A stretch of DNA of 64,000 nt from assembly GCA_021030905.1 (NCBI GenBank), contig JAGFMI010000004.1:1364001-1428000 (forward strand). The letters are read 5' to 3'. Below, one piece after another: positions 1-64,000 of this stretch. This stretch comes from Pyrenula massariospora (lineage: Eukaryota > Ascomycota > Eurotiomycetes > Pyrenulales > Pyrenulaceae). A model generated the notes under the pieces. The model was not told the DNA's origin. It searched no databases and saw only the letters and a program-made list of their open reading frames with translations. Every line of letters starts with the position of its first letter. The first letter of the stretch is position 1. Both the position numbers and the translations under genes were made by a program.

Positions 1-902
1 CTGCCCGTGGGGAAGGATCGGATGCTGACAAGGTCGTTGATACTTGGCTGAAGCTGAGGAGTGGAGTGGTAGAGACGGTTGAAGGCGAAGAGGAGCTGAC
101 ACGATCGATGGAGAATTTTCAGGACAAACGTGCAGCAAGGAATCCTCCTCTAGGCGATGAATGAAATGGTGAGGAGAACGGTCATCTATTGAACTGTCTT
201 GGTGAACTCCAGATATCTAGACTGAGCTGGCTAAGTGATTCTGGGCTGAGCATGGCTCTCTGCCATTTCTTTTCGTATTGAGCAGGCTTTAAGTTGGGCT
301 TCAGCGAGGCAAACGTTTTATACTACTCGAGATAGGTTAGGCAGACATTGCGATATCCCTTCATCTAGTATTATCACGTAAATAACGCACCTTGCTTCCT
401 GCAACACTTCCCTAGCTAGTGTCGAACTAGTAGATGCATGAGTGAGTGAGGGAAGTGCTGTGAGCATGGCCTGCTTTACCCCTTTTAGGGATAGGATCAC
501 GTGGCTGGGAGTGGTTCTGGTGATCCCGACGGAGGTTATTGAACCAGACGCGACGAAGAAAGGGAAAGAGAGATATACTGAGAATGTTATATCATCGCAC
601 CGAAAGCTCGGATGCTAGGCTGGCCTGCTGTTGTCGTTGGGGGACGAGATTCTGATAGCCCGCTGTTCTGTAATATATAACTGAGTTCGGGTGAGAGCCT
701 GGTATGAAGAGAGGTAGGGAGAAAGGCTGACAGATAGATGGAATTCTAATGGTGTTGATGTCTTCTCAAAGACATAATATAGCTTTCATACTTTCCCTAT
801 ACATGAGAACAGCAAAGATTTTGATATCCTTTTCCCACTCCTCAGTCCCGATCAAGCATCTCGTCTTTTGCAGCTCTCTCCTTCTACGTCCTCCCCAATT
901 CA
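1..902. other. No gene recognised (left edge)
   Basis: No reading frame here has recognisable protein character, and the longest open frames are short and lack splice continuity. The stretch is moderately AT-rich around 560-740. It may be the 3' flank of the small minus-strand gene at 903-1441 together with the flank of a gene lying left of the window. Confidence 0.4.
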
Positions 903-1441
903 TCAAATCACCTTCCTCTCCACATCATCCGTCACCCTCCCCGGATCCTCGCCCTCCCTCCCCGGCACCTCCCCCACATACGGCCCCTCGCTTGCGCCAA
1001 ACTCCTGATCCGCCCCCTCCTGCCGAACATGCTTCTCGTACCTCGTGCTCCCCTTTGCACTCGGATCATGCACCACCCCTCCAGGCACATTGTGCAGCCG
1101 CTTACTATCCACCGTGCTCGGCAGACTATCCCCCGTCCCCGTCAGAACCTCGTTCACAGCATTGTCCCGCGTGCTCTATATCGCACAGTCAGTCTGCTTG
1201 ATCATCGCCGCGCACACGGGGAATAACAACGCACCCTTGGAATATCCCCCGCGTTATCCGCAGCGTCCTCTAGGGTGCTGCCGCCGAGGTAGTTCGGATC
1301 GTCGCTGGAAGCGACCTGGTCGGGGCGCGGCTTGGAGGGGATGGTTCGCATGTTGCCCGCGTCGCCGGGGATGGTGGTGCCTTCGGCGGCCATGTCCATC
1401 AGGTCGCCGCCGGTGTGGGGGTCTGAGCGGTCGTTGGACAT
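903..1441 (-). CDS. Small hydrophilic protein, two exons
   Basis: I do not recognise the family. Exon 1 runs 1441-1235 and exon 2 runs 1175-903. The 59-nt intron has a GTGCGT donor and a TAG acceptor and keeps phase 0, giving about 160 residues. The protein is very hydrophilic, rich in Gly, Asp, Ser and Pro, with no signal peptide or membrane segment, and resembles hydrophilin-like fungal proteins in composition only. Two AGGGG (STRE-type) elements lie about 570 bp upstream at 2007-2020, which would fit stress induction; that is inference. The gene carries a C-rich to G-rich composition switch, and a Pro/Ser-rich antisense frame over it is a by-product of this. The exon join is convincing; the function is open. 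Confidence 0.6.
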
Positions 1442-2280
1442 CTTTGAGTAAGGGAGGTGGTGATGGGGGTTTCGCGTGAGGTGTTGGTATCTTTTTGCGG
1501 TTTTCTTGGATGCTGAGGTAGTGTTCCTATAGAAGAGTCTACGACAGCTCGGAAAGGCGAGGTAGAGCTTCTATGAGCTTTCAGTATTTAGCGCAAAACT
1601 TAGGAGAATGAGGTCTTGAATTCCGAAATGAGAATGTTTTTAGAAACTTATTTCAATTGGCTTCTAGAATGGTAGGTAGCAGTCAGGAGCTAGTGATGTC
1701 ATCATTTCATCACAGGGCAGGTCCAATCGATGGGAAATTTTGCCATCTTAGACTCACCAGAGTGCTTTGGACACTCGAAAAAAGCTCCAGTTTCTTGCTC
1801 TTGCCTACTGCTTAGAATTAAAGGTCACGGCCGGAGGAAGATGTTGCTGCGGAAGGCGGAGGCAAAGACAGCGCCGTTACAAAAGAGACAAATATAGCCT
1901 GATAGCCTAGTCTTTTTCGCCGTCAGGGCTTTGGAAATCGTTGATTTCTAATGAATTCTGATCATCTGCTGTGTGGGGAGATTGGGACCCTGTGATACAT
2001 AGGGTCAGGGGGGAAAGGGGGGTTTCAAGGCCGTCATTTAGGTCACGTCCGCCGTTAGATCGCACGTGGTTTCGCAGGGGATGAAATAATCCCTTATCAC
2101 CGGGTTCAAAAGAAAATGACTAGCTTCTCGTGCCTTTGAAACAGTACTTTGATATTGAATTCGGGGTATCAAGATGGTTGCGTAATCCCTATGTTAGGGC
2201 GGCTGTAAGTTTTAGCAGCCTCGCGTCAAAAAACACCATAAAGCTTCCGCGCCCATCCGAATACGTGCTGATTCACCTTA
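1442..2280. other. Intergenic, promoter side of the small hydrophilic gene
   Basis: Non-coding as far as I can see. It separates the start of the 903-1441 gene from the stop of homogentisate dioxygenase. The only notable motif is the pair of AGGGG elements at 2007-2011 and 2016-2020 inside a purine-rich run. Confidence 0.5.
2007..2020 (-). promoter_or_regulatory. Paired STRE-like elements
   Basis: Two AGGGG pentamers (CCCCT on the minus strand) lie 4 bp apart. In fungi this core is bound by Msn2/4- and SebA-type stress factors. They sit upstream of the small hydrophilic-protein gene. The core is short and common, so function is only suggested. Confidence 0.25.
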
Positions 2281-3790
2281 TTAGAGATCGTGCACACTGC
2301 TCATATCCTTACCATTGCCAATCCCGTTGTTTGCCTCTTTCGTCGTCACTTTGTAATCATTCTCCACCTTGCCTTCCGGTCGTCTGAAATGTACCTTCAA
2401 CGGGCCCCAACTTTCTTCATTGTAACTTGGCTGTATTTTTTGGCAGGTCTTGAGGCCCCAATACGTCACACCGACCATCAAACAGCTCTCGAACATAAAC
2501 GCCATGCTTCCTTCTCCAACTTTCGCTGGTGCAAGATCAACGGTCGACGCCTTCTCAAAGGTCTGCATGTCCGGCCCATGACCACTCATGGTGTTATGTA
2601 ACGAGGCGCCAGCAGGTTGGAACCCTCCCTTGCCACCACCTTTGGCGTCATACGTACCATGTATAAGACCCATGAACTCGGACATCGTGTTTCGATGGTA
2701 CCACGGTGGACGGAAGGTATTCTCAGCTACCAGCCACCGCGGAGGGAAGATAACGAAATCCGCAACGGCAGTTCCAGGCCCGTGGGCCGGTGAAGGTGCG
2801 CTCAAAACGGTGAAAATCGACGGATCCGGATGGTCGTAAGAAATACTGCCAATGGTGTTGAAACGTCCGAGATCATACTTGTAAGGATAGTATAAACCGT
2901 GCCAAGCAACAACATCGAATGGAGTATGTGACTGCGTAGCTTGAAATAGATTGCCACCGAATTTTCCATACAGCTTCCATTCAGAGCTCGTGTCCTCGGT
3001 GTAGGCGGCAACAGGTGCCTGAAAATCCCGCGCATTGGCAAGACAGTTGGATCCAATAGGTCCTAGCTCAGGCAACTGGAAATGGCCTTGGTAGAGTTCG
3101 CAAATGTAACCCCTGATTGGGTTGTTGTCAGAGATATTGACACGGTATCGAACTCCACGAGGAATTAGACAAATCTCACTAGGTCGGACAAGCAAGTGAC
3201 CAAGTTCCGTCTGAATGTCAAGCACGCCGTGCTGAGGCACGATCAGGAAGTCCCCATCCGCGCTATAGAAAGCTGTTCGTTCAGGCATTGAAGTGCCTGC
3301 AGAATATATGTAAATGCCGATGCCTGCCTTCATCGTGGGGTCTCCGGCCCCAGCGACGAGGTGCAAGCCATGAACCCATGAGACTTTTGGGTCTAGATCG
3401 AACGGATCCCAGCGTAGTTGATTGGGAATGGTGTTGAAGTGTGACGCGTAGGAGGGGGAAGGTGTACTCAATGCATTCGGCGAGGATGGAGACACAGGCT
3501 CAAAGGATTGGTGAGAGGAGCAAGGGAGGATTCGATAGACCCAGGTCTGCTGATTCAGGTCACGCGGCGCAGTGAAAGCCGTGCCGGAGAGCTTTTCGGT
3601 ATAGAGACCATAAGGGACCTGTTGAGGAGAATTTTGTCCTTCTGGCAGGGCGCCTTCTATGGCCTCAGTCCTGCGCAATGTGGTTAGGTGGGGTCTATGG
3701 ATATGCCCTGTTCGACACTTACTGATGGTAAGAGTTGAAGCCATTTTGATATCGATACTTCTCGGGAACCTTGAAGTGGGTCACAGGCAT
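2281..3790 (-). CDS. hmgA: Homogentisate 1,2-dioxygenase
   Basis: Non-haem Fe(II) dioxygenase that opens the ring of homogentisate to maleylacetoacetate in tyrosine and phenylacetate breakdown. The start is the ATG at 3790 (reading [15 protein letters not shown]). Exon 1 is 3790-3723, a 52-nt GTAAGT...CAG intron follows, and exon 2 is 3670-2281. This yields 485 residues and restores the family block [11 protein letters not shown] right after the junction; an internal ATG at 3744 is out of frame with this start. The iron-site residues of the family are visible as His348 and Glu354 in [18 protein letters not shown], and His381 and His387 in [12 protein letters not shown]. Length and motifs are normal, so the gene looks intact. 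CYP504 and fumarylacetoacetase lie 15-18 kb to the right. The start codon is overlapped by the 3' end of an upstream same-strand ORF. Confidence 0.96.
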
Positions 3791-7500: not shown

Positions 7501-7879
7501 TTGTGCGATAAACGGCTTTCTCACTTCACCAGGGAAATGCTAACCAGAACTCTTTGATGGCACTTTTCTCTGCAAGACCGCGACTACGGTATATGCAAAA
7601 ATTGATACCCGCTACATTGATTCCTGGAGGAGGGACAGAATGGCTGTGGGAAAGCTGGCTGCTAGAAAGTTCTGGGACCAAACATGCGCAGGTTGCCTTG
7701 CAACTATAGCTACCTTATCTTACGAGTCTAAAAAATCAAAAGTCCCCATTCTTCAATGCCAAATCGTAAATAATATTTCTTGGTGTTAGAGCATGAAGCT
7801 TCTATCTATTGCAAAACCCTTGAGACCAGCAACTTTCCCGCTCTTATGGCGCTTTCAGTTGTAAGAGTATGTACCCAAA
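4530..7879. other. 3.3-kb gene-poor stretch
   Basis: No gene recognised on either strand. Open frames are short, mutually overlapping and show no splice-linked continuity or known motif. GC content varies: richer at 4680-5200, poorer after 5700. A perfect 9-bp hairpin lies at 7150-7178. I saw no terminal repeats or transposase-like reading frame. It may hold a long promoter for the 3684-4529 gene, non-coding RNA, or decayed sequence. Confidence 0.5.
7150..7178. repeat. Short perfect inverted repeat
   Basis: GGCGATTTT at 7150-7158 pairs with AAAATCGCC at 7170-7178 around an 11-nt loop. It lies in the gene-poor region, 3' of the membrane-protein gene ending at 7880. It could be a cruciform, a protein-binding palindrome or chance. 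Confidence 0.5.
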
Positions 7880-16626: not shown

Positions 16627-17864
16627 ATGGTTAGTCATCAGCCGACCCGGCTCTCCTTCTGGGAGCAACTCGTCCTCCTCAAGGCCCGTCTGCAACTACG
16701 TACGTCTCTTTCTGTCCCCAAATTGCCATCCAAGAACCTCTTCTCAATAATAACGTCCAACCGCCAGTCCTCAAACTCCTCACCCTCATCATAAAAAAAC
16801 GCCTCACCCACCCCCCACCAAACGAACCCCTCCTCAAAACCACCGCCATCTCCCTCCTCACCGCCCACCGCCTCACCTCCCCCTCCGAACTCTCCACCCG
16901 CGCCCGCCGCCCCCCAACCTCCGCAACCATCGCCTCCTACTGCCGCAAAAACTCCCTCCCCTGGCACTCCGTCCCGCTACTGCCGCTGGACCAGGAACCC
17001 GCCGCCGCCTCGTGCACCCTGCACTTCCTCGGCGCTACCCCCCCCGGCAGACCCCGGACGCTGTACTACCTGCACGGCGGCGGCTACGTGCAGCCCATCA
17101 CGGGCCTGGGGCACGTCTCGTTCGCGCTGTCCTGCGCCGAAGCGCTGGACGCGCAGCTCGTGCTCCTCGAGTATACGCTGGCCCCGGAGCTCCGGTATCC
17201 GGGGCAGCTGGGGCAGGCGGTGCGCGGGCTCAAGCGGCTATTGGAGGAGGAGGGGCGGAGGGCGGAGGAGATTGTGCTTGGCGGGGACAGCGCAGGCGGG
17301 AATTTGGTGGTGGGGGTGTTGGCGCATGTGGGCCGTGCGTGTCCGCGTGTGCCACAAGCAGTGGATTTAAAGGGGGGGAGGTTGGGCGGGGCGTGTTTGA
17401 TTAGTCCGTGGGTGGGGCTGACGTATGCGAGCGGGAGCTATGCAAGAAATAACAGCTATGATTTTATCACGCGGAGCCCGCAGATGGAGGACGTGACGCG
17501 GATGTGGGGACCGGAGAAGGGGGAGGTGTGGTGCGATATGCTTGAGGGCGGGGAGGATGGGTTCTGGAGGGGACTGGTGGGAGAAGACGGAGGGGTGGTG
17601 GAACGGGTGTTGATCACGGCGGGGGAGAGGGAGATTTTTTACGATGATATTGTGGAGTTTGCAAGGAGGGTGGGGGCGGAGGAGACGGAGGGGGCGAGGG
17701 TGAGGCTGGTGAAGTGTCCGGGGGAGGTGCATACCAGTTGTCTTTTGGATAGTGCGGTGGGGATCAAGGGGAATAAGATGGCGAGCTCGATTTTGGAGTG
17801 GATGCAAGAGGTTCGTGACGGATCTGAGCGGAGGGAACCTGATAAGCTCAAGGCCAATTTATAA
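16627..17864 (+). CDS. Alpha/beta hydrolase, HSL / steryl-acetyl-hydrolase type
   Basis: Serine esterase of the hormone-sensitive-lipase group; fungal members remove acetyl or other short acyl groups from sterols and small metabolites. Exon 1 is 16627-16699, the intron is GTACGT...CAG (68 nt) and exon 2 is 16768-17864, giving 389 residues. The oxyanion motif LHGGGY, the nucleophile elbow GGDSAGG (Ser199), a late Asp in the AGEREIFYDD block and His in GEVHTS form the expected triad. No signal peptide is seen, though the N-terminus is hydrophobic enough for membrane association (LLKLLTLIIKK). Composition is extreme: 16770-17000 is very C-rich and 17200-17720 very G-rich. The stop lies 104 bp from that of the convergent CYP504 gene. 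Confidence 0.9.
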
Positions 17865-17968
17865 ACAATAGTTATACAAGAAATATTCAATAATAAATGA
17901 ATTTTCGATATACCATTACCTCTACAATCGTAGACATCGTCAACCTCGTAAAAGGGAACCTTCCCTCC

Positions 17969-21765: not shown

Positions 21766-24436
<2,671 letters not shown>

Positions 24437-28842: not shown

Positions 28843-30305
28843 ATGATGCTCCACCGTTCCGACTTTTGGAGCCTCCATTATCTCATAGGGATCACGATTC
28901 TACTATCCAGATCAAGTTGCACTGAGAAGACGGCACTGTTGACAAGACAAAATGAAGATAATGGGAGGACTTTCACAGAGGTTGGAGGCCAGATCTTTAC
29001 ACCAGGGCTCGCGATCGTGGATTCTCCGCAGCCATTTACTCCCATGGGTGGTGGTACGTTTTACTCTTCATTTTGTTGAATTTACGAAGGAAAAGATCTG
29101 CGCATTGTCCATTCAAAGCAATGTATGGTTAGAAATATTCTTGTTCTACGCTATCTCAAATCGCCTCAAAGCTTATAACAAACCATTGCTGAGGTGGAGT
29201 CTTTCGACCTGCTGCAGCATAAAATGAGCCGCGATGTGTTGTTGCACCCTTTTGATACTCTGACCTCGACGACCTCTTATTTAAACTAGAACAAGTTTTA
29301 CGAAGACCTGCTTATTCTACCCTTGTGTTCATCCCGTCTTTGCCTTTTAATTTACGATTTGATATCAAAATCACTAATACATTATCCACCTAGACTTCTT
29401 GCAGATAGCCCTCGACATTTCTGGTGATGGCGCCCTCCCATTTCCTCCGTCTCAATCTAGCAACCAACCGACCCTCTTCCACAGTGCGCCCTCCCTGGCC
29501 CCTCTTCATGCCAAGTGCGCATATATTGACCTCGGACTTTCTTCCTACAGACATAACCCTCTTCCTAACCTCCTTCACAACCCTCTTCAACCTCACGATC
29601 TCCAACGGCACTACTTCTACCACCACCCCTCCCCTAGCACCAATTCTCTCTCAAGAGCCCTCATCCACAGTGAAACACATCAACTGGCTCTGGCCCGACT
29701 GCCTGGTGGGTGACGGCCCCGCATCCCCATCCTCCCCCTCCACAACAACGACCACCACCCCTCCCAGCTCCACCGCCGCCACCGCACCAGCAAACGCCCG
29801 CGGCTCCTACAACATCAGCATCCACCAATCCTTCCGCCTCAACGGCACAGACTACTACACCGTCTTCGACCTCCCCATCCAAGTCACCAACCGCATCCCC
29901 ACCCAACCCTCGCGGGTGGGAGACCAGCCATCCCCGGGACCCGCAAACCCCGACGGCTCCCGCGTTTCGTGCAACCTCCTCGGGAATGCGGTGGTCTGGC
30001 CGAACCAGACGGCGAATGCGACGAATAACCCGCCGAGTATGCCGTTTGTAGATGGGCCGGTGCAGGTTGGGGGTACTGATGGTGATAAAGGAGGAGGGAC
30101 GAAGGGAGGCGTTTATGGGGCGGTGACGGTGACTGTTACGCAGCCGGCGGGGGCGAAGCAGACGGGAGATGGGAAGGGTGGGATTGATAGTGGAAGTGAT
30201 AAGGGTGGAGGGCTTGGTGGAGCGGAAGCGGCGGGGCCGCCGAGGTTAGGCGTCCTCGTTGGATTGGGACTGGGTGCTGTGGCGCTGGCGGCTGGCATGC
30301 TGTGA
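28843..30305 (+). CDS. Secreted, probably GPI-anchored protein of unknown function
   Basis: Exons are 28843-29053, 29394-29483 and 29551-30305, giving 351 residues. Intron 1 is long for this window (340 nt); its removal joins PQPFTPMGG|DFLQIALDISGDG. Intron 2 (67 nt) joins QPTLFH|NITLFLTSFTT and creates an N-glycosylation site. The N-terminus has a signal-like stretch (LHYLIGITILLS). The middle has several N-glycosylation sequons and SYNISIHQSFRLNGTDYYTV. The C-terminus is Gly-rich and ends in a hydrophobic tail (LGVLVGLGLGAVALAAGML) typical of GPI signals. The layout resembles conserved but uncharacterised fungal surface proteins. Composition flips from C-rich (29690-29930) to G-rich (30040-30300). 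A start one codon later is possible. Confidence 0.75.
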
Positions 30306-31122
30306 GTTTGGAGGATTGGAGCTGGAGGTCCAACTTCATGTTCTTCCCGGGCTCAGAAACGTCTGATTTAGATCGAAGTTGTCCGGTCAAAGTCCTTGTC
30401 CTGAGATACCTGCTGCAGCAAGATAGCTGGTCTTATTATCCTCTCATTGCAAGAAGCGCAGCAATACCGGACACCATTCAGAGCAGAGCCCTTAACTCCC
30501 CCGCTCCATCGGCTAAACGTGTACAAAGAAAGTGGGTCTAAGTGAGTTAGACAACATAAATTTTCCATAGCTTAACGGCCTAGACCATAGCAGCCCCTAG
30601 TAGTACTAGACAGGTTAGAGCCGCTTTAAGTAACCCCGAATGTGTGCGACAACGTCTGGGTCTGAATGTTTACATAGCCACACTATTGATTGCCTCATTA
30701 GGAAAGATATGACCCGCCCATCCTAATACATTTGACCGCGAAGCATCCCGTGGTACCTTGCGCAATATTAAGATATGCAATGGGCAGAAAAAGGGTGAGG
30801 AAGGTATCGTCAATATGACAGTGATACCTATTTATGCTTTACTTGACCGGCACGACTGTCGCGAGTTTTCGCCCGGATCTCTCCGTGTAGCCTGTCTGGC
30901 CTGAAGGTTCTGGGAATGCCGAAACATTCTCCGAACAATCACCACAGATCCTAAATTTTTGGCGGCAATGTTTCTCTAATGTAGTGCTTCAAGGCTCCCT
31001 CCGAAGCCTGCTGTAACAGCAAATGCCGGCAAGTCTGAAAAATTGGCATAGGTATTCTGTAAAGCTAAGACCCAAGAGCCTTATGTAACTCAATGTAATG
31101 CGGTCTATCTGCTGCTGAACTT
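30306..31122. other. Intergenic between convergent genes
   Basis: Lies between the stop of the GPI-type gene (+) and the stop of the MCT-type transporter (-), so it contains two 3' flanks. No coding potential recognised. Confidence 0.5.
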
Positions 31123-32704
31123 TCAGACCCGCTTCGGCACCCAAAGCCTCCTCACCAGATTCCTATCCTTCCAGCTCCTAGCCCTCATTTCCGCAACCTG
31201 ACTTCCATCGACCTCTCCTCGATTCCCCTGTCGCACCACTACTCCCGCTTCAGCATCCTTCTCCATCCTCGCCAACTCCCCCTCATCCGCCCCTTCCGCC
31301 AATTTCACCTTTGCTAGCTCCTCAATCTCGCCCACCTTCCAAGCTCGCACCAGCCACAAGCACACAGTCGCAGCGAGGTACATGAACGCAGTAAAGATTT
31401 GCACATCAATGTAAACGTTTTCCGAGCCTGTTCTACGAAGCTCAAGTGCAATAGCTTCGGCAACGGTCGATGGCGGAACCATTAGAAGCCATGTGATTGA
31501 CAGTCCAGCGGGGAGGTCTTGGAGCCCAATGACTTCGGCGCAGACGGGTGATATAGTTGCCCAGAGAGTTCCCGCCACCGTTCCACCAACGATCGCGAAA
31601 AACGAGAGAAGTCCCATCTCCTTAGCAGGAACCCAGAAAGCGAAGCAGAATATTGCGCAGGCGAACGTAAGAAGAGTTGCTAAATTGAGACGGCCAAAGC
31701 GGTCAGAAAAGATGCCGATGAATGGGCGGCCGGCCTGAACAGTTAGGTTAATGCTGGTACGTCTCTCTAGGCAGAATAGAGCTTACCATCTGACCCACAC
31801 TCAGCAGTGCAGCAATGATGGAGCCTTGCTGAGCGCTCAGCCCAACGCTGACCGCGTAATCGGGCAGCGAAAATATGACAACAACGTAGCCAAGCATTGA
31901 GAAAAAGCACCAGCCTTGAAGTAAGCAGAACTCTGGCCGTTTCAACAGTTGTCTGTCAAACGCATGGTGTCTTGCACCAACCTGCCGATTTCGATCCTTC
32001 AACAGGTTTACACAAATCAAATTAACAGCACACGAGATGATGCCCAGAATTCGGAACGCCCACCCCAACCCTACAGAATCGATCATCGCCTGGCTGCCCA
32101 GAGAGTAGACGAGACCGCCTAGGCCTGATCCAGCTGCACCGATAGCATTCGCAAGGCTTCGTCTCTTGAGAAACCATTGCGCCGAGATCCCGACCGATCC
32201 AACGAATAGAAAGCCCATACCATATCCGAAACAAAGACCCTGTGCCAGGATGAGCGAGTACTTCTGCCGTGCAAAGCTGGCTCCGATCAGAGAGAGCGTT
32301 TGGAAAAATATACCCAGATGCAAGCAGACTTTGGTGCCAAAGCGGTGGACAGTCCAGGTAGCTAGGGGAGCGATCAGCATAGCTTGACTGATGCTCAGCC
32401 CGCCGATGAAGGCGTAGGCCAACGGAGAAGTGTTAGGGATGACATTGTGGGAGAGGTAGTAGGAAAGGAAGACTCCGTAGGAGCTGTTGATTCCCCACGT
32501 ATGCGCATTAATGAGAGCGGTGGCGATTACGCAGATCCAGCCGTATCCACCATCTGGAGGGTCGTCTGCGCTGGGTCTTGACGGAAGTTGGGAAGTTCTT
32601 AGAGCATTACCCGGTGGTATGGCCCTTTCTTCGTCTCGACTTTGAGCAGCGAGACGAGAAGGACTTCGAGGTCTAATCGAGTCGGTTGGGGGATTGTCCG
32701 TCAT
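31123..32704 (-). CDS. MFS monocarboxylate-transporter-like protein
   Basis: Twelve-helix carrier of the fungal MCT group (Mch/Esb4-like), which has members for monocarboxylates, riboflavin and unknown substrates. Exon 1 is 32704-31787, a 52-nt intron follows, and exon 2 is 31734-31123, giving 509 residues. Family signs are the DDPPDGGYGWICVIATALI start of helix 1 after a disordered N-tail, WGINSSYGVFLSYYL, and SVGQM|AGRPFIGIFSDRFGR across the splice. The cytosolic C-tail is charged (KLAEGADEGELARMEKDAE). It is divergent from the paxillin-like gene. The substrate is unknown. Confidence 0.9.
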
Positions 32705-36931: not shown

Positions 36932-39900
36932 ATGAAGAGTCTCAAGCGACAACTACTTCCCACTGATTCCCGCGGACCGCAAGTCGCCAGCAAGACCTTT
37001 ATTCGATCTACTAAGAGCGGGAAGGTCCAGAAAATTGTGCGCGAGATCTACCTTAGACAAGATATTCCTTGCTCGTCCAATCTCTGTGAGCTTTGCAGAG
37101 AGACAGTTCCGAGCGATGCATACGGAAATGGTGAGCTACTGGTCCTGTACCCTGCAACAATTTCCTAGCTCACAGCCGCCATAGTGCCCAAATTCTTGCT
37201 CTCGAGAAAACCAAAAGGAACGAAGAGCGTTCCGTCCGGCCACTATCTCATTCCCGACACCAATGTATTCTTGAATGGAATGGACCTCTTCGACCAGACC
37301 GACGCATTCTACGATGTCATCGTTCTGCAGACTGTACTGGAGGAGCTCAAGAACAGATCATTACCTCTGTACAACCGCTTAGTAGCTCTCACCAAGAGTG
37401 AGGAGAGGCGTTTCTACGTGTTCTTCAACGACTTTCGCCAGGAGACTTACGTTTTGCGAGGGGAGGGCGAGTCGATAAACGACCGAAATGATCGAGCTGT
37501 CAGGCGAGCAGCAAAATGGTATATGGAACACTTGCCGCGGAAGAAGTGTCCGGAAATTGTAATTTTGACGGACGACCGGGAGAACTTGAAGAGGGCGAAG
37601 ACTGAGAAGATTACGGCCCTTACTATGGCAGATTATGTCTCTGGCCTAGACGATGCAGATCGCTTATTAGACATGATGAGTGATTCTCAGCACAATTCTG
37701 CAGACCGAGGCTCGCAAGGGGAGCTGTTCTATCCGGAATACTACTCAGCTTCGAAAGTGATGACAGGGGTCAAAGCTGGTACACTCCATCAGGGCTTGTT
37801 CAGTGTTTCGCCGTACAATTACCTCGAGGGTACTGTTCAGGTCTCAGCTTTTGAAAAGCCATTGCTCATTCTAGGCCGTGAGGCCAGCAACCGATCAGTC
37901 TCAGGAGATTCCGTTGTTGTGGAAGTCTTGCCAAAAGACCAATGGAAAGCCCCATCTACTAAGATAGTTGATGAAGAAACGCTCAACAAGGACGACAACG
38001 CAGAAGTCGAAGACGAAGAAGAAGTAGTTGTTACTGAGCGGGAAAGACGTGCGTTGCAGGACGAAGTACGGAAGGCGCACGGGGGTACCTCAGAGTCAAA
38101 AGCTCAACCAACGGCCAAAGTAGTAGGCATCATCAAGCGTAACTGGCGACAATATGTGGGCACAGTCGACTCTCGAGCAGCTGGTTCGTCATCGATCCAA
38201 GGACGGAGACAACAAACCGTCTTCCTTCTACCTATGAACAAAAAGATACCTAAAATTCGAGTCAGAACGAGGCAAGCTCAAGAACTTGTCGGCAAACGCA
38301 TTCTTGCCACCATTGATGCTTGGGACAGGGACTCTCGATATCCAGTTGGCCACTATGTACGATCTTTGGGTGACCTAGAGACTAAAGGCGCTGAAACTGA
38401 GGCGCTTCTTCTAGAATTTGACGTGCAGTATCGACCGTTCCCTAAGGCGGTGTTGGACTGTTTGCCCAATGAAGGTCATGAATGGAGGACCCCAGTTTCA
38501 CAATCAGACACTGGTTGGAAAGACCGGAAAGATCTCCGAGATCTTCAGATCTGCTCGATTGATCCTCCTGGATGCCAAGATATTGATGATGCTCTCCATG
38601 CACGTCCTCTACCAAATGGCAATTTCGAGGTCGGAGTTCACATCGCTGATGTGTCGCACTTCGTGAAGCCGAATAATGCAATGGATGCTGAAGCGACGAT
38701 GCGTGGGACTACTGTCTACCTCGTCGACAAGCGGATAGACATGCTACCAATGCTACTTGGGACCGATTTGTGCTCCCTCAAACCCTACGTTGAGCGCTAC
38801 GCCTTTTCTACAATCTGGGAAATCACACCAGATGCGGATGTGGTGTCAGCGTCATTCACGAAGTCCGTGATTCTTTCCAAGGAGGCATTCTCGTACGAGC
38901 AAGCTCAGCTAAGAATCGACGACCCCTCTATGAAGGACGAGCTTACCAAAGGCATGCGTACGCTCCTTATCCTGTCTCAGAAACTCCGACAAAAACGCAT
39001 GGACGCGGGAGCTCTCAATCTCGCGAGCCCAGAAGTCCGCATTGAGGCAGACACCGATGAGACATCAGATCCGTTGACAGACGTGAGAACAAAGGCATCC
39101 TTGGCCACAAATTCCCTCGTAGAAGAGTTCATGCTGCTCGCAAATACAACCGTCGCAAAGAAGATCTTCGAATCTTTCCCCCAAACCGCCCTCCTTCGCC
39201 GACACGCCACCCCTCCTGGGACCAATTTCTCCGAGCTCGCTGAGCAACTGAAGACGAAACGCGGCTTTGAGCTTGACACATCGAGTTCAGGTGCCCTAGC
39301 GAGCTCGCTTGACCGTTGCGTTGACCCAGCACACCCGTTCTTCAACACGCTAGTACGGATCCTTGCAACGCGTTGCATGACCTCGGCGGAGTATTTCTGC
39401 AGCGGCTCGCATGCAGAACCTGAGTTCAGACATTACGGTTTGGCAAGCGAGATATACACACATTTTACAAGTCCTATCCGTCGATATGCCGATCTATTAG
39501 TGCATCGGCAGCTTGCTTATGCTATTGGCTACGAAGGTGAGGGAAGTCAGATCTCCGACGAAGGCTTGAGAAACAAAGGCAAGCTTGAAGCTGTTTGTCG
39601 GAATCTAAATTTCAGACATCGAAATGCACAGCTAGCGGGACGAGCGAGTATAGAATACTACGTTGGCCAAGCCCTGAAAGCTCGTGGGGAAAAATCGACC
39701 GATGCCGAGATCCAGGTGGATGGGTATGTCATGCGGGTCTTCGAAAATGGAGCGGTTGTGTTTGTCCCAAGGTTTGGTGTGGAAGGATTGGTAAGGTTGG
39801 ATGATTTTGAACTAAAAGGAGATAAAGGGGGGAGGAGAGAGAGTGACTTTGATGCAGAGGAGTATCGGATTACGGTTTTTGAAAAAGGAACTGAAAAGAT

Positions 39901-40015
39901 GGGTCGATCGGTGGAGCTATTTCAGCAGGTGAATGTGAGAGTGAGCTCGGAGGAGAAGGGGGGATCAAGGGAGCAGGGGAAGCGTAGGGTCAGGATTGTT
40001 ATTCTATCCACATGA
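36932..40015 (+). CDS. dis3: Exosome exoribonuclease Dis3/Rrp44
   Basis: Catalytic subunit of the RNA exosome, a 3'-5' exonuclease with an added endonuclease site, for rRNA maturation and RNA decay. Exon 1 is 36932-37130, a 54-nt intron follows, and exon 2 is 37185-40015; 1009 residues. The N-terminal CR3-type cysteines (CSSNLCELC) are followed by the PIN domain with Asp91 in IPDTNVFL, Glu120 in VLEELKNRS and acids in NDRNDR and ILTDDREN; two cold-shock domains; the RNB core SIDPPGCQDIDDAL; and an S1 domain (QVDGYVMRVFENGAVVFVP). Asp91 and Glu120 fall at the same numbers as I recall for yeast Rrp44. Both nuclease sites look intact. It is followed closely by trm8 on the same strand. Confidence 0.97.
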
Positions 40016-40442: not shown

Positions 40443-41693
<1,251 letters not shown>

Positions 41694-42197
41694 GGGAAAA
41701 CACGTGGTACGTGCAAAATTGGAGCTATGGTATGCTTGAGGTAATGTGTGTTTCTTGAGGTGGAGATCTTGCAAGGGAGTTTGGCAACTTTAGCAGCAAT
41801 ATTCAAAACACCTTGCACCTGACAGTCACCGTGAAGCAGCTTTTTGTCGATAAGTCTACGTATAACCCTGGCTCCAGCGTGATGCTGAGATTCCTGAGAG
41901 AAAGGGCTCGATTTTGACGCAGCAGTAACGTTGAATTTGCCTCACTAAAATTTTGTACAAGCACTGCCTTTTGAAGCAAGAAAATGACAGGCTGAAAAGG
42001 CCAAACCAATCGCCCAAAAAAAGCCAAAAAAGAAAAGTAAATAAACTCCGGATAGAATCAGTAACACTGCATGGATAACGTAGCTCGTGCTGTACAGTGA
42101 ACCAGCACCGTTTTCAAATCTCTTGCTTTTGATGCCTTTCTCACACGTCAGATGCGCCTTCCAACTTACTTTGCCAAATGTACCCGCCGTGCACGCA
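41694..42197. other. Intergenic between convergent genes
   Basis: Lies between the trm8 stop (+) and the Zn2Cys6-factor stop (-). AT-rich, with no coding signal. Confidence 0.5.
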
Positions 42198-46185: not shown

Positions 46186-46890
46186 CTTTGCCTGGGAATT
46201 CTTAGTATTAAAGTAGTTGTGGTACAGCAAATGGCGAAAAGGGCTACGCATTGAAGCGTGGTCAATGTGGCCGCCGTTATCTTATCGTGGAACCCCTCCC
46301 TAACTGTGTTAGGAACATGCAAAAGTTGAAAACATCATTTGCTGTTACAATCATGCTCGATTGCTTAGGATTTTGGTCCATTCGTTGCTTGATCACTAGT
46401 TTTATGCCCATCGCGGCTCATAAATCCCGCCTTACGCCACCTTGAAATTGTTTGACCTACTTCATGGTCTCCATTTTACACAGTAATCAGCAAATTGGTG
46501 ATGATAAATATTTCGGCCTATTGCCTGACCTTCTGCAGCATGTTGAGGCACAGCTTTTAGGTCCATTTTCGCGTATACTATCGCGTCAAATAATATCCAG
46601 TGTCATATCTTTAATTGATGGTCTCCGCGGCAACAAGGGTCTGAGCGAGGCCAGCAGGCAGCAGTATTTTCTTGTTTCTTTTAGGTCAACCAGACAAACC
46701 AGGTCAACGTGTTTTCTGACATGTGAAATATCCTCGTGATTCTCAAGAAGGACGGATCCATCATCAGATCAAAATCTCAAGCCTCATAATTACTCTGAGC
46801 CGGATCAAACTACTTAGGCTTCACAACGGCATCTCTGATCAGGTAAATAGCCTCCTCCAATCACACAGTAACCAATTTCTCGCCGCCAAA
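46186..46890. promoter_or_regulatory. Divergent promoter region, nitrilase gene / small unknown gene
   Basis: AT-rich non-coding stretch between two divergent starts. No gene recognised inside; it should carry both promoters. Confidence 0.45.
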
Positions 46891-47217
46891 ATGCCCTGGT
46901 CTGTCCCATCGGCCTTTCTAAACCACACAATCGCCGCCGACATCATCGCCCGCGACAGCGCCCCTGCAGACGTAACCTCTATCGACGAGCAACGCATCCT
47001 CGACGGCAAAGAACTCCGCCTCTTGTCCCGCCTCTGCTTTGCGCCAGAGCAGAAAGATCAAATCCTCCATGAGAATGACATGCTTGACGAACCGGAGCAG
47101 AAAGCAGGGACAAAGGCGGCTGGAAAGGGCAGTTTGGCCGGCTATATGATTGCAACGTACGGGACGGAGGGGGCGGGGTTAAGGGAGGAGGATGTGGTGA
47201 TGTTGAGGAAGTGGTGA
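46891..47217 (+). CDS. Small unknown protein, shortened by a tandem duplication
   Basis: The frame from MPWSVPSAFLNHTIAADIIA gives 108 residues, mostly helical and charged, with no signal peptide, membrane segment or known domain. A perfect 17-bp tandem duplication at 47194-47227 shifts the frame and stops it after LRKW. With a single copy the frame would run on as FETGAANLARMD to a stop at 47270, so the shared ancestor was probably 121 residues. The gene shows the C-rich (46920-46990) to G-rich (47100-47270) switch seen elsewhere in the window. The protein may still be functional, since only the last 13 residues are lost. Confidence 0.6.
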   Translation: MPWSVPSAFLNHTIAADIIARDSAPADVTSIDEQRILDGKELRLLSRLCFAPEQKDQILHENDMLDEPEQKAGTKAAGKGSLAGYMIATYGTEGAGLREEDVVMLRKW

Positions 47218-47227
47218 TGTTGAGGAA
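47194..47227 (+). repeat. Perfect 17-bp tandem duplication
   Basis: GTGGTGATGTTGAGGAA occurs twice head to tail (47194-47210 and 47211-47227), followed by a partial third GTGGT. It lies in coding sequence and changes the frame. Confidence 0.95.
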
Positions 47228-47270
47228 GTGGTTTGAGACTGGGGCTGCGAATTTGGCGAGGATGGATTGA

Positions 47271-48121
47271 GCGGTGGCGGGATTGTTTCGTGGCGTATGG
47301 TGAGAAACCTATGCTTTAGGTTTCGTCATCTGGCTGGTCAGGTTAAGGTAGAGCTCGATTACCTGCACTACTGCTGTAAAGACCTGTGAATAGACTACAA
47401 GTCAACAGGCTTGGACCATGACGGGCGTTGTGATTCGTGGATACTAAAGATGAGAAGGACCGAGGTGAGAAACTTACGAACGGAATGAATCACGATCCAA
47501 TAGATAAGACAACAGACTTTAGCTCGTTGCTCCCCAGCCTCTACTGCGGGCAGGAAAACAAAGCTACCTCTACCCTACGTTTTCCAAACTGTTGTAGCAC
47601 TGGGGTCCATGCAAGCAGTCCCATGTAAATGTGACTGGAAACTCAAATGATAGACGGCTTGAAGAATCGTCTTACGACGGGCAAATGCTGTGTGATCTAT
47701 TTGCACCGCTAAATTGGGACCTACTTCATCAGCCAACAAGATAAGAATAGATTCACGATCGAGAGTAGGAAAGGATGCCTTCTCTCTCAATTCGCACACA
47801 TCTCACAAGAAAGTGGTTGACCAATGCGTTCCCTGGATAGTCACACTTCTAGAGCTTACTTTGATGGTCATTGTGCCTTGATGCGGCTTGAAGGCATGCT
47901 TTTGTAATAGCTATGATCTGCATTCAAAGGTCCTGTGTATCAGAGCAAGCCGTAAACGTTACCAAAAACCGAAACCTGATCGACATCAATTTCGTCTTTT
48001 GTCTTCCCTAGGCTGCCAATTGAGAGGTCAACATTTCCGTGGGTATAGATATCTTAACCGTTGAATCTCGTGCTTGTAACCCCAACCGTCTTCCCTCGTC
48101 TATCTTCCTGGTCGATCTTGC
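47271..48121. other. Intergenic between convergent genes
   Basis: No gene recognised. It contains the 3' flanks of the small unknown gene (+) and the complex I gene (-). Confidence 0.5.
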
Positions 48122-48631
48122 CTACGACTTATTGACATTATCGGGATCCTCCAATATCCCCTCCTTCTCCAATCGTCTCCTGGCCTCCTCGAGGGCCCAC
48201 GTCTGGATACTATAGATTCCGTTAATCTTCTTATCATCTCCTTTGTCTTGCGTCAAAAATACTTACGAAGTGTCCGGCTTAAATGCGTACAAAACACCCG
48301 CCAAAATTATGCTTCCCCAGTATCCATAAAAAAAAAGATACTCCCATCCCTCATTCTCATATTTCTCGCCAGGACGGATACCCCACAGCCAGCCGGTGGG
48401 TGGGTCGTACTGAGATTCGTGACCGTGGTCATGACTGTTGTCGTGTTCGGGATGGGAGCCGTCACGTGGCGAGTCGTCGACATGAGAGGGTGCTGAGTGG
48501 GGTGCCGTTGATGCTAGGCGGAGCAAAGTGTGAGGTCTCGAGTGTCGGAGGACGAGAGGAGAACGACGGAAGGGAGCATGGAGGAGCGAGGGGGGTGGAC
48601 GGAGGGGCATTGTGGGTGGGTGGGTTGGCAC
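48122..48631 (-). CDS. Complex I ESSS subunit (NDUFB11-like)
   Basis: Accessory membrane-arm subunit of mitochondrial NADH:ubiquinone oxidoreductase. Exon 1 is 48631-48267, the intron is GTAAGT...TAG (57 nt) and exon 2 is 48209-48122; 150 residues. The N-terminus is Arg/Ser/Pro-rich without acids, as for mitochondrial import. A His/Asp-rich loop and the conserved block PTGWLWGIRPGEKYENEGWE follow, then one membrane helix (YGYWGSIILAGVLYAF). The splice restores KPDTS|IQTWALEEARRRLEKEG, the family C-terminus. A start at 48610 is also possible. The gene is small and was recognisable only after joining both exons. Confidence 0.9.
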
Positions 48632-49108
48632 GAGGTAGCAAAAGGATGGACAGCCTGTACGGCTGCAGTAGCTGATATGGATTCCAAATTCCCTGATTCA
48701 AGTTGGCAGAGCCATTGCAAGCGTGCTTGTTGAGTTGCAACCGATTGACGTTTGAGGCTTGGAAGGTACCTGAAGCTGTGGTCGTCGGGAAAGTTGACCT
48801 TCTGGGATTGCGAGCGCTTAACCATAAACGGCTGAACAGACCGATAGTCGCGCCAAGCCATCGCACCTTCTCGATGCCCGCAAATCGATGGAGGCGCCGT
48901 TTGGCGTCTCTCCTTACAGCTGTATCTGCATGCACAATGTGCTACAAGAGGTGCATCAATACCTAGCCTCCGAACCAACTATGCACATTATTGCAGTATT
49001 ATTTTCATGGTATAAGAGCGTCAATAACTGCACTGAAGCATGAAAGACACCCTCGCTAACGCGTCAGAACTGCTGTGCTACCACCCGAATCATTATGCTA
49101 ATGCTTGT
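48632..49108. other. Intergenic, complex I subunit promoter
   Basis: Lies between the complex I gene start and the gcn20 stop, both minus strand. No other gene is recognised. Confidence 0.5.
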
Positions 49109-54510: not shown

Positions 54511-55131
54511 TGGGGGGGCTGATTGGGCGTCTGTTATAGGCCTTGGGGCCTCCAGTCTCCGGCCTGCTGCACCACCCTGCAGTTGGCGTGTCGGGCGGAT
54601 CGTTGGTGGAGAAGCCTGTACGCGCAGGGGTCGCCTTGGTTAAAACTTACGAGACCACTCCGCGCCTGTAACCACCACGCTCCTCTCCCCCCCGGCTTTA
54701 CCCCAATTAGCGGCCCTCGCGTCTTTTCCAGGAATTCTTACCAAAACTTCCGCTTCGCTTTTCCACCGTGCCTCTCTCCATGTCGTGTGTCTTTTGACTT
54801 TGCCTTGAGCTCCGTCGGTCTGAAACTCTTTTCACCTTTCCCCTCCTCTGGACCACTTACGCCGTCCAAACGAGCCGTCGTTCCAGCAATTGTTCTCCTC
54901 CTGTCGATTCTACCACTCGGGGGCTGCCTAGCGATTCACAAGTTAGCACTAACCTCTGGGACGCGGTCTTTTTCCGAGACACGCTCCCGACGTGCGTCTG
55001 GCCATGGGATTCAAGTGAAGAAGTAACAGAACCATGTGGAAAGAGGCGGGGATCTTGTCGAGAAAGCTATGGTGAACACGAGGGTTACTGCCCGTCAATC
55101 GTCAGCGTGACTTTCGACAGGTCTATCAAGA
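54511..55131. promoter_or_regulatory. Upstream region / leader of the large disordered-protein gene
   Basis: Pyrimidine-rich, with no convincing gene. A 167-codon open frame (54523-55026) has erratic composition and no in-frame link to the next exon, so it is better read as promoter and 5' leader. Confidence 0.45.
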
Positions 55132-61459: not shown

Positions 61460-61948
61460 CATGGTCGTCACAACATCCTCTGTACAATGAATAGGGCACA
61501 TAGATTTTGACATGTACAGCCTAGCAGTTGAATTGTGCTGCTTCAAAAGTTCAAGGATCGTGCATGAGAACATCAACTTGCCTATAGTAAATCTGAGGCA
61601 TTCTTATTGTACATAAGGGGGAGTTAAGATTGCAAATTTCATGAGTTTGGGCATTACCAGAGCTGCGCGCTCCAGACTGTCGAGCTTTCCTACCTCCAGA
61701 ATTACCATTGCTTCACATCTTGTCGCACTTGAAATAAAATCAATATCTTTTATCTTACGTTTTCTTTCACCTACCATCTTATTAGTACATCCCATAATGT
61801 TCTGTTTACCACAATCCTCCATTTCAGTTCATTTCAGATCACTTCACGCAAAGTTCACCAATCACTCCGCTCTCCGGTATTGACTGCCTCCAAGTCTAGC
61901 TTTCGACAAACTCTACGGCCGATCTCGTCTCTCACCGGTCGTGCAAGC
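61460..61948. other. Intergenic, F-box gene promoter
   Basis: About 0.5 kb of AT-rich sequence between tandem plus-strand genes. No coding signal is recognised. Confidence 0.5.
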
Positions 61949-64000
61949 ATGCGGATCGAGATTTTAGACGATCAGAGGGAGGCCTCTCCACCTCAGGCTC
62001 AAACAGACTCTGACGTTGAAATGCCCGATGACACCGTCTCCCTACTGACTTCAGCTCCATCTTGGATTGATAATGACGATCGACCACAACCGGAAAGACA
62101 GGTCGCCGAATTCGAATCTGAGAGTCTTGGGTTCATCTTTAATTGGACGCGGTCGTACCAGTGCGGTCTTGAGAGTCTTCCTTTCGAGGTGAGCGTGCAT
62201 ATTTTCAAGGGCCGAGTAGCATCACTAATCGTAATGTTGACAGCTCATTGAGGCAATCGCGCTTCGACTTAAAACTGACCCTGACGTGATCAGCCTGGCG
62301 CTTGTCAGCAAGTATACCGCTACTACCATTTTGCCGAGCTGGTCTGGAGTGTGGAGAGATAGGTTCCTAGCCCGATATGACTACCCTATCATTGCCGATA
62401 GCCTTGAATTCCGGCCAGCTTATCAGATCCGCCAGCTCATCTTGAAAGCGTTTGTCAGCTTTGACAGAGGTGGAGGGCTCCAGGGACTTGAGTGCCTAGA
62501 TACGATAAGAGAGATGATTATGGGTATGTAATCACCCAATTTTGGATGGTTTCCTAGACCTCCTACGTACTAAACGTCTCCCAATGCCCGTTAATACTTC
62601 TGCTGAAAGCCTTGCTAGAAGCCTACACGACCCCGATGCCAGGCAACAGACCTCCTCATCTCAGCCAGAATCTTCAATGCCTCGAGCTCAGTGAGCGCTT
62701 TGTCAAGAACTTCCTCTGCCAGCCGCTGTATAATTATCGACCCGATGACCAGTCCTCCGCTGGTCACGGAGATCCGAACGACTACTTCGATGCCATACAG
62801 TTGTGTCTCACGCACATCGTACTTTCCACGGAATCTTTCGCGTCTCTAAGCATGAGTGGACGATCTACTTACGATCCATTAAACGTCTATGGGTGGCGGT
62901 CTGACGAATCTTTTCGGACGCTCTACCACATGGCTCTTGTGCCTAGTGAGGTGTGTGGCTTTAATTGGACACTTCCAGTTATGTACTTGGATTTGCACAA
63001 CCTACTGCACATTCGCAACTTTTGGAATCGGCATTTTACATCTGCTGATGAGAATACTTACCGCGAGATGGCACGGGAGTTAGAAAGGCTGGGGCGAGGA
63101 CCTAAAAGTTGGACTGAAACCCTGAACCCAGACGATGAAAAGATCTTTATATCGGACAGATGGATTGGGCACTATAGCTGCATGCACGATTCTAGGGAGG
63201 TCAAGAACCTCGCAGAAAACATGCAGAGTTGTGCCGAGGACTGGCATCCCGTAGCGCCCACGGTAAGTTCTACATATTCCTACGAGCTAGCTTCAATGAG
63301 TTGCCATTTTGTTGCTTCATGGCAAGCCCCACTGACTTTTCTCCTATACTCTTAATCTCACCACCTCAACCTCCTCAAGACATGCAACACGGTTCCACGA
63401 AATCTTCACCCAAATCCCTGCACTCCGCCCTACAATCCCCGACCTCTTTCATTCCAAGATCCCTATGGCATTCTTTCGCGGCATCGCGCCTTTCATCCTC
63501 CCCTCCAAATTTGACTCCTCTGCCCCATGCAACAACCAAATGAAACCCGGCGACATCGATCGAATTTCGTCCATGGGGTACAGTTTCCCGATGTTGACCG
63601 CGCATGATTTTGCAAATCTGGAGGCGAACTTTTATTCAGGGTTGAGGGTCAGGGGTTTTGCACATAAGATTGACATCGGGGATAAGGAGCGGAGGGAGGG
63701 AGAAGGGCAGTTACTGGGATTGTTTCGGAGAGTCGTGATGGTGATGTATAAGCCGACGGAATTGTTTTTGCTGGCAGAGATGGATTACTGGAGATTTGAG
63801 GTGAAGGTGAAGCGGAATATGAGGACTGGAATGGGGTCATCCGACGCGGACCCAATGGAGGGACTTTGGCAACGCACGGATCCGATGGCGCCTGATCAAA
63901 GGCCGCTACCAAACCGGGATTATGTAATTGAGATCGAAGACGCTTATCTCAAGGACCGGGGTCGGCCGCTCAGGTGGAGGGATATTGAATATGCCTATGT
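61949..64000 (+). CDS. F-box-like protein, 3' end beyond window
   Basis: Likely substrate adaptor for an SCF ubiquitin ligase. Exons 61949-62188, 62244-62523 and 62610-63262 are clear and in phase. The F-box lies at the first junction (LESLPFE|LIEAIALRL...VISLALVSKYTA). Exon 3 encodes a large fungal-type C-terminal region (YMALVPSEVCGF-like segments, HNLLHIRNFWNRHF). A further exon ends beyond the window and reads IPMAFFRGIAPFILPSKFD and then ISSMGYSFPMLTAHDFANLE. Its 5' edge is uncertain: the acceptor that keeps phase is at 63458, while protein-like sequence (FHEIFTQIPALRP) extends about 75 nt upstream, out of phase with the nearest AG. The end of the protein is not seen. Confidence 0.75.

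Follow-up and report, generated by a model that had tools for sequence, protein, structure and literature searches.

The window, a single 64-kb stretch of one genome from which all results come, contains seven genes within which a C-rich and A-rich sequence switches to a G-rich and T-rich one, silent codon positions included. ATGs, introns and gene ends were assigned by eye from ORFs and homology. The strongest inversion (locus 4, plus strand, 41038-41784) has its C arm at 41038-41358, its G arm at 41394-41784 and its crossing near 41370; it lies in the final exon of a gene for a tRNA (guanine-N7) methyltransferase of the TRM8/METTL1 type (ATG around 40443, stop codon ending at 41693). The left arm extends into an inferred intron, where 30 of 62 bases are C and 5 are G, and the right arm continues beyond the stop codon, where 94 bases include 34 G and 9 C. 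This footprint occupies the 3' half of TRM8; the C arm starts about 595 bp downstream of the ATG, and the skew over the first 300 bases from the ATG is +0.13. In the three alignments listed, out of nine solved relatives, the C arm contains an extra segment rich in P and S, and the G arm contains extra segments rich in G, E and V. On the same strand, an alpha/beta-hydrolase gene (Abhydrolase_3; ATG about 16627, ORF end 17864) carries locus 2 (16666-17835; C 16666-17045, G 17201-17835, crossing about 17140), whose G arm is strongest 380 to 560 bp from the crossing. Locus 6 lies on the minus strand (48148-48649; C 48148-48190, G 48395-48649, crossing about 48320-48340) at a complex I ESSS-subunit gene (Pfam E value 9.2e-06), and its C tract falls outside the ORF, which runs from the ATG at 48610 to 48266.

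The remaining four loci lie in spans with no Pfam match. Locus 1 (minus strand, 828-1487; C 828-1140, G 1412-1487, crossing about 1235) belongs to a gene formed by 1441-1205 and 1175-906, with inferred frames and junction. Locus 3 (plus strand, 29433-30328; C 29433-29911, G 30044-30328, crossing about 29980) is located in the plus-strand ORF 29427-30305, whose product has by eye the look of a GPI-type surface protein. Locus 5 (plus strand, 46851-47304; C 46851-46964, G 47161-47304, crossing about 47095) lies in a plus-strand ORF with its ATG at 46891 and contains a tandem duplication of 17 bp (2.6 copies) at 47188-47232. Locus 7 (plus strand, 63327-63836; C 63327-63537, G 63639-63836, crossing about 63587) is in the plus-strand ORF 63336-63998, a gene that may extend past the window. 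Nine noncoding stretches flanking the tracts were examined, and some of them lack the bias of the arm: C exceeds G (19:11) past the stop codon of locus 2, while the counts are 32 G to 26 C past locus 3 and 37 C to 32 G left of locus 7.

To every position of the window we assigned a left-C/right-G contrast, using arms of 200 bases with a 50-base gap on each side. This unbiased scan gave 18 C-to-G peaks of at least 0.10, and the top seven, at 41357 (0.495), 29983 (0.365), 63587 (0.320), 17132 (0.305), 1235 (0.240), 47095 (0.230) and 48316 (0.190), are the seven loci that the first-pass annotation had picked out; its counts per 60-base line were exact on recount (6/6), and the skew sign was right in all 14 tract intervals. 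After shuffling of 60-base blocks, C-to-G peaks of at least 0.185 numbered 0.4 on average and four at most, and seven were reached in 0 of 200 shuffles. The C-to-G pattern is a continuum with seven extremes.

The annotation had also stated that the reverse order never occurs. Across the whole window this goes too far, since three comparable G-to-C peaks reach 0.185 (17884, 54598 and 804), all of them outside assigned genes. The strongest (17884, score 0.265) corresponds to an inversion at 17835-17959, with no strand assigned, between the 3' ends of the convergent hydrolase and P450 genes, and the peak at 54598 sits in an unassigned 229-codon ORF without Pfam match. By count alone, seven versus three is not significant under block reversal (P 0.11-0.13). 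Weighted by amplitude, the C-to-G excess is significant, being reached by 6 of 2000 block reversals at lags of 150-600, by 38 of 2000 at 150-400 and by 24 of 2000 at 150-1000; at lags of 1-8 kb it is not significant. Neighbouring tracts no more than 300 bases apart numbered 4 C-to-G and 0 G-to-C at a score of at least 30, 7 versus 2 at 12 or above, and 12 versus 13 at 8 or above.

Left of the crossings, fourfold C:G was 233:33, and on the right it was 33:200 (left/right P 1.4e-66, treating sites as independent, as do the P values that follow), compared with 1488:1464 in a background of sites lying over 700 bp away from any crossing, drawn from 56 stop-to-stop ORFs, some of which are not genes (eight were hand-placed at the loci; the others, of at least 100 aa, were taken greedily by length). 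Twofold pyrimidine C:T was 99:24 left, 23:58 right and 1157:1050 in the background (P 1.5e-13), and twofold purine A:G was 53:24, 24:101 and 1047:1159, respectively (P 1.9e-12). The twofold A:G and C:T ratios shift too, so that the enrichment on the left is in A as well as C, and that on the right in T as well as G.

Such a step might be expected from selection acting on the protein, on codon usage or on the folding of mRNA, and background codons placed on the same proteins do yield 20-51% of it. However, when background codons were redrawn on the same proteins, the observed step was reached in 0 of 500 redraws at each of the seven loci, so the skew is not fully due to protein composition, an explanation that the first-pass annotation had raised against its own claim. 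The twofold preferences of A versus G and T versus C flip between the sides, which no single codon preference does, and the TRM8 arms reach inferred intron and untranslated sequence. As for folding, arm complementarity equal to or above that observed arose in 62, 5, 5, 24, 8, 10 and 38 of 100 local shuffles across the seven loci, with only two of them at 5 or below. Altogether, selection appears unlikely as the source of the pattern, and the amino-acid share of the step was probably pushed by the same process as the silent sites. A palindrome or hairpin was also considered and set aside, the arms being not clearly complementary beyond their composition.

The mean profile reaches a skew of -0.60 at -240 to -160 bp and +0.59 at +80 to +160 bp, heights that are selected upwards because crossings were placed at maximal contrast; the mean extremes thus lie 80-240 bp from the crossing, and the arms are about 300-400 bp long on average. 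The raised local GC that had been proposed is borne out, with a mean G+C of 0.56-0.62 from -320 to +320 bp versus 0.43-0.52 beyond 400 bp. Fourfold GC is 0.48-0.89 in six locus ORFs versus 0.39-0.70 in 18 others, and it correlates with the half-to-half skew difference across the 24 ORFs (rho 0.70; 0.42 with P 0.08 in the 18 outside the loci). Tandem arrays are also in excess: of 11 such arrays, 5 are found no farther than 400 bp from one of the seven crossings, a zone that makes up 8.8% of the window (binomial P 0.0015), although local shuffles already placed 2.45 there on average and reached 5 in 1 of 60. No common motif was found at the crossings, since 8-mers were shared by at most four of seven and all were C-rich or G-rich arm words. 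Two further candidates were dismissed, a simple CpG effect (CpG observed/expected 0.54-0.93 within 400 bp versus 0.86 for the window) and tRNA genes as anchors, of which ARAGORN finds none in the window.

Mirror antisymmetry with a G/T-rich right strand is the classical polarity of bacterial origins, and the first-pass annotation had noted that the polarity here equals that around a bidirectional replication origin. The match is superficial. An upward jump in total skew is indeed described at human origins (PMC3459929). But the skew is near zero beyond 700 bp (mean 0.00 left and -0.07 right at 700-1500 bp, six loci each), whereas S. cerevisiae origins, according to the same source, show an average skew jump of 9%, far smaller than the step here, that decays over about 20 kb, a replicon scale not approached here. 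Two of the crossings (47095 and 48316) are just 1.2 kb apart. Moreover, in S. cerevisiae, K. lactis and C. albicans it is A and C that are reported to be enriched on the leading strand, and not G (PMC3459929), so that A/C on the left and G/T on the right is opposite to the sign of these yeasts, though they are not this fungus. We consider origins at the crossings highly improbable.

The inversion sign is linked to genes. Judged by a set of 23 assigned spans (17 with a Pfam match) that covers 47% of the window, 9 of 10 C-to-G peaks of at least 0.15 were genic but 0 of 5 G-to-C ones; for peaks of at least 0.10 the numbers were 13/18 and 4/17. This contrast is partly circular in that four spans lacking a Pfam match entered the set as the ORFs of loci 1, 3, 5 and 7. 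When only the 17 Pfam spans were used, the genic counts at 0.10 were 9/18 versus 2/17 (P 0.027), and with all ORFs counted, 16/18 versus 8/17 (P 0.012). The genic/intergenic contrast was weaker once the seven loci were removed: 6/11 versus 4/17 with 23 spans (P 0.125), 6/11 versus 2/17 with Pfam spans (P 0.030) and 9/11 versus 8/17 with all ORFs (P 0.115). The C-then-G sign is the same in plus- and minus-strand genes, as had been claimed, and since reverse complementing leaves this order as it is, the statement can just as well be anchored to genes: inversions tend to follow genes, with the coding strand C-rich towards the 5' end and G-rich towards the 3' end. In five of six loci the coding-C arm starts no more than about 50 bp from the assigned ATG, and in all five loci with an assigned end the coding-G arm stops no more than about 120 bp from the end of the ORF.

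A transcription-anchored gradient could account for this link. In such a gradient the coding strand would become C/A-rich near the transcript start and antisense transcription from the other end would mirror this on the other strand, giving every gene a tendency to a C-to-G run, strongest in short or bidirectionally transcribed ones. The genic counts at 0.10 agree with it, both with all spans and with Pfam spans alone, as do arms that often end near ATG and stop. Outside the loci, fourfold C/G by thirds of 14 ORFs was 316/242, 322/249 and 268/296, and the half difference was positive in 13 of 18 ORFs and fell with length (rho -0.47, P 0.046); a C excess of 0.13-0.22 at transcript 5' ends is tabulated for five of seven fungi (PMC555766). 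Nevertheless, this general trend is small next to the 43-fold odds ratio at the loci. No C-to-G step exists at 12 assigned ATGs (six in locus genes), where the mean skew is -0.19 over 300 bases upstream and -0.21 downstream, and the crossings lie 204-927 bp downstream of the ATG at the six loci where one was assigned. The late start of the TRM8 C arm and average extremes so close to the crossing also speak against it, although the G arm of locus 2 peaks much farther away, and the G+C peak is left unexplained. Transcription is a possible cause, one that we doubt more than we believe.

Breaks at gene ends offer a different route to the same sign. Meiotic breaks in the promoter and terminator regions of short genes, whose resected strands lose C and A, would turn the gene between them C-rich on the left and G-rich on the right and put the reverse step in the intergenic break zone. 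Short genes are indeed favoured, and the strong G-to-C steps fall between genes (genic in 0 of 5 by assigned spans and 1 of 5 by all ORFs). Yet skew and G+C should then peak at gene ends, and on average they peak around the crossing; TRM8 is without signal over its first 600 bp, and loss of C alone lowers G+C. Even though the sign agrees with that read for human hotspots (PMC7615360), we find this explanation quite unlikely, somewhat more so than selection.

The interpretation that we place first is strand-asymmetric repair or gene conversion at foci within gene bodies, with the transcription-anchored gradient as the main rival. Tentatively, and with rather less than even confidence, we regard the seven loci as footprints of a strand-asymmetric process running outward both ways from a focus in the gene body, for which recombination seems the most likely candidate. 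A break or nick near the crossing would start repair synthesis in both directions, errors or mismatch correction would leave the newly made strand G/T-rich, GC-biased conversion would lift G+C, and silent sites together with loosely constrained protein segments would absorb the bias over evolutionary time. The basis for this repair reading is the mirror-antisymmetric silent sites, the G+C raised on both sides and the excess of short tandem duplications at the loci. Hotspots of GC-biased gene conversion at the crossings are possible, judging from the raised G+C at the loci, but GC-biased conversion alone does not give the excess of T over C (58:23) at twofold pyrimidine sites right of the crossing. 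Known systems supply several of the ingredients: strand-asymmetric mutation flanks break sites at human hotspots (PMC7615360), 1435 of 2578 Z. tritici hotspots are given as lying within exons (PMC5844332), break processing sets strand-biased mismatch resolution in mouse cells (PMC9001825), and poly-purine/poly-pyrimidine tracts are associated with yeast and human hot spots (PMC1543642).

Several observations weigh against repair from a focus. As read from PMC7615360, the human asymmetry has the reverse sign if the break lies at the crossing; C>N and A>N mutation on the strand exposed left of the break would deplete left C, here enriched, and the model therefore needs nascent-strand errors or mismatch correction rather than plain damage to the resected end. 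A gene-blind process need not match crossing signs or arm ends to genes, some noncoding flanks are off-pattern, a weak 5'C-to-3'G trend exists in the 14 ORFs outside the loci, and the crossings share no motif. More speculatively, and with lower confidence than the footprint reading itself, the crossings may be long-lived intragenic recombination starts whose repair leaves nascent strands G/T-rich and so records break positions at about 100-bp resolution. If so, one genome's silent sites would suffice for reading a fossil recombination map, and neither crosses nor population data would be required.

Among known systems, the centromeres of the fungus C. albicans likewise carry a local antisymmetric jump in GC skew that is very large (74%), is back to average at about 3 kb and has been argued to be non-replicative; those jumps are centromeric and extend about 3 kb per side, whereas here several occur in 64 kb, within coding genes, at about 0.4 kb per side and with a G+C peak (PMC3459929). 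Human hotspot flanks share the mirror asymmetry about a focus and the C + A versus G + T classes, and their insertions include side-by-side duplications, reminiscent of the tandem duplications here, but they concern rare variants over 2-kb flanks with the opposite sign as read, while ours is fixed composition (PMC7615360). In plants and several fungi, transcripts have an excess of C at their 5' ends, which resembles the 5' C-richness of our coding strands (skew about -0.2 around assigned ATGs), although that excess is single-signed and near the start, and the relevant part of that source reports no G-rich arm after it (PMC555766). Plant low-GC3 genes prefer C early and G later at third positions, with gene-averaged skews of about 0.05-0.1, compared with focal extremes of -0.88 and +0.74 in the two halves of a single exon here (PMC2895627). 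At human transcription starts, a mutation excess within a few hundred bp on both sides is tied to divergent transcription, R-loops and G/C skew (PMC12658150); our loci are inside ORFs, and the assigned ATGs are without a step. Among the matches listed in literature searches (titles and abstract openings, subscription literature being mostly outside coverage), we recognised no description of such intragenic inversions. Searches of viral contigs with dis3, the second gcn20 ORF, TRM8 or amylase and of genome contigs with dis3 or TRM8 returned no relative.

Origin skew jumps of about 9% (PMC3459929) need genome averages to be seen, whereas single loci here nearly swap C for G at silent positions over a few hundred bp, with protein segments following suit; a conserved gene for a tRNA methyltransferase is among them. 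Should recombination be responsible, each locus would document where repair begins and what strand bias its synthesis has; should transcription be responsible, the loci would amount to an unusually strong mutational record of sense and antisense. In both cases, analyses of codon usage, selection and phylogeny that include the affected genes would be biased. Two of the conserved genes said to be free of the pattern do not wholly lack it: the fourfold skew of hmgA is -0.34 over the first half and +0.09 over the second, and the 3' end of dis3 (plus strand, 39174-39998) bears a weak C-then-G form, with C at 39174-39216 and a terminal G tract at 39715-39998.

Seven genes of the window carry on the plus strand a C-rich tract (left arm) followed by a G-rich tract (right arm), with the skew changing sign at crossings near 1235, 17140, 29980, 41370, 47095, 48320-48340 and 63587 (loci 1 to 7; loci 1 and 6 on the minus strand, the rest on the plus strand). 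The six base counts by which the first-pass annotation had illustrated this pattern were all exact on recount, and its seven loci turned out to be the seven strongest C-to-G inversions in an unbiased scan. Shuffling 60-base blocks produced seven such inversions in 0 of 200 trials. Averaged over the loci, skew reaches -0.60 some 200 bp to the left, passes through zero at the crossing and climbs to +0.59 about 120 bp to the right, with -0.07 and +0.09 at 400-700 bp and near-zero values beyond 700 bp. G+C is 0.56-0.62 between -320 and +320 bp and 0.43-0.52 beyond 400 bp; the crossings were picked for contrast, so the heights of these profiles are selected upwards. As an average, both the skew extremes and the G+C plateau centre on the crossing, except that the right arm of locus 2 peaks 380-560 bp away from it. 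In TRM8, the tRNA (guanine-N7) methyltransferase gene of locus 4 and the strongest case, the footprint occupies the 3' half of the gene, and the first 600 bp are neutral. No C-to-G step is seen at the 12 assigned ATGs. The 300 bp on each side of the 12 assigned start codons (1441-48610) are C-rich on the coding strand, with a mean of about -0.2, and a C excess of like sign in several fungi is described in a section of PMC555766.

The footprint arises at the DNA level. Fourfold sites have C:G of 233:33 left and 33:200 right of the crossings, against a background of 1488:1464 (56 ORFs, sites more than 700 bp from crossings); TRM8 alone has C at 40 of 46 such sites on the left and, on the right, G at 31 of 39. 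In the background, twofold sites are close to even; the left arm has C:T of 99:24 and A:G of 53:24, and the right arm has T:C of 58:23 and G:A of 101:24. Both transition types take part and oppose each other at these sites, so that A and C are enriched in the left arm, G and T in the right arm. As the cause of this, plain GC-biased conversion is rejected, because it would favour C over T on the right, where T prevails. Protein composition is rejected as well: at none of the seven loci did any of 500 redraws, with proteins fixed and codons drawn according to 16 other ORFs, attain the step, although they gave 20-51% of it. In alignments of TRM8 with three (8h0n, 3ckk, 8d58) of nine solved relatives, conserved blocks are kept, the left arm holds a proline/serine-rich extra segment and the right arm glycine/glutamate/valine-rich ones; the amino acids appear to be dragged along by the DNA-level process. 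The plus-strand sign is the same at minus-strand and plus-strand loci.

The TRM8 arms reach into an inferred intron and beyond the stop codon. Noncoding sequence beside loci 1, 5 and 6 matches the arm (C:G 33:7, 11:44 and 52:24), that beside locus 2 (19:11) runs against the expected G excess, and that beside loci 3 and 7 (26:32 and 37:32) matches barely or not at all; a short noncoding piece that separates the two locus 1 ORFs, close to the crossing, gives 8:5. Directly downstream of the TRM8 gene, 41980-42039 is A-rich, with 33 A and 4 T in 60 bases.

Because the reverse complement of C-then-G is again C-then-G, one order in both gene orientations means a coding strand that is C-rich 5' and G-rich 3'. 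Using 200-base arms and 23 gene spans that we assigned (17 with a Pfam match), 13 of 18 C-to-G peaks of at least 0.10 lie inside genes, versus 4 of 17 G-to-C peaks (P 0.007), and at 0.15 or more 9 of 10 versus 0 of 5, a contrast that is partly circular because ORFs at four loci entered the span list on account of the loci. Restricting the spans to those with a Pfam match gives 9/18 versus 2/17 (P 0.027), and taking all ORFs gives 16/18 versus 8/17 (P 0.012); when the seven loci are dropped, P becomes 0.125 (assigned), 0.030 (Pfam-only) and 0.115 (all-ORF). Across the window the C-to-G excess is not significant by bare count (7 versus 3, P 0.11-0.13), and it is significant when weighted by amplitude (6/2000 at lags 150-600). 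Fourteen other ORFs show a weak gradient, with fourfold C/G by thirds of 316/242, 322/249 and 268/296. The half-to-half skew difference is bigger in short ORFs and in GC-rich ones (24 ORFs, six at loci); for the 18 away from the loci, P is 0.046 against length and 0.08 against GC. Two neighbouring minus-strand ORFs at 31126-32704, which probably belong as exons to a single MFS transporter gene, each have their own weaker C-to-G order, with fourfold half-to-half differences of 0.96 and 0.54 in the coding direction. Arm ends frequently lie close to an ATG or stop codon; this and the genic sign speak most strongly for a cause anchored to genes or transcription and against a gene-blind process. 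Transcription from both gene ends would account for this linkage, but it leaves the G+C peak and TRM8 unexplained, and we consider it rather unlikely.

Our leading reading, held tentatively and at somewhat less than even chances, is focal repair at recombination foci inside genes. The symmetry, width and variable position of the footprints, their G+C peak and the duplications all fit such foci. Zones reaching 400 bp to either side of the crossings make up 8.8% of the window and hold five of the 11 tandem arrays (P 0.0015); low complexity explains part of this excess, as local shuffles already give a mean of 2.45 and reached 5 in 1 of 60. The inferred end of the locus 5 ORF falls within 47188-47232, where 2.6 copies of a 17-bp unit, matching at 96%, look like a recent tandem duplication in the right arm. 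Fungal hotspots can sit in exons, as do 1435 of 2578 in Z. tritici according to a portion of PMC5844332. Human break sites are flanked by strand-asymmetric mutation in an excerpt of PMC7615360, whose sign, as read there, is opposite to that of our loci if the break is at the crossing. The focal model thus needs a newly made strand that becomes G/T-rich, which might arise, for example, if G-T wobble pairs are made in error or are corrected with a bias. Break processing can give mismatch resolution a strand bias, as PMC9001825 states. Breaks at both gene ends would have the human sign, yet the extremes should then lie at the ends of the gene, where on average they do not, and this explanation is less probable still.

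Replication origins at the crossings, whose polarity the first-pass annotation had found to be equal, are disfavoured by the range, the size and the yeast sign published in part of PMC3459929. The same part describes the nearest published fungal case that we found: at C. albicans centromeres the skew jumps by 74%, and the author argues that replication is not the cause. The footprint is a strand-asymmetric composition footprint, which is a known kind; our literature search recognised no match to intragenic mirror footprints, and we did not find a description of this form, intragenic, focal and near saturation at the strongest locus. No relative was found in the two contig collections scanned, so all results rest on 64 kb. 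The fungal nuclear genes of the window, presumably those of a filamentous ascomycete, include, by Pfam, a fungal-specific transcription factor domain, Dis3 domains, homogentisate dioxygenase and fumarylacetoacetase, with further matches to P450, GH43, alpha-amylase, Etd1, an ABC protein (called gcn20 in the first-pass annotation) and others.
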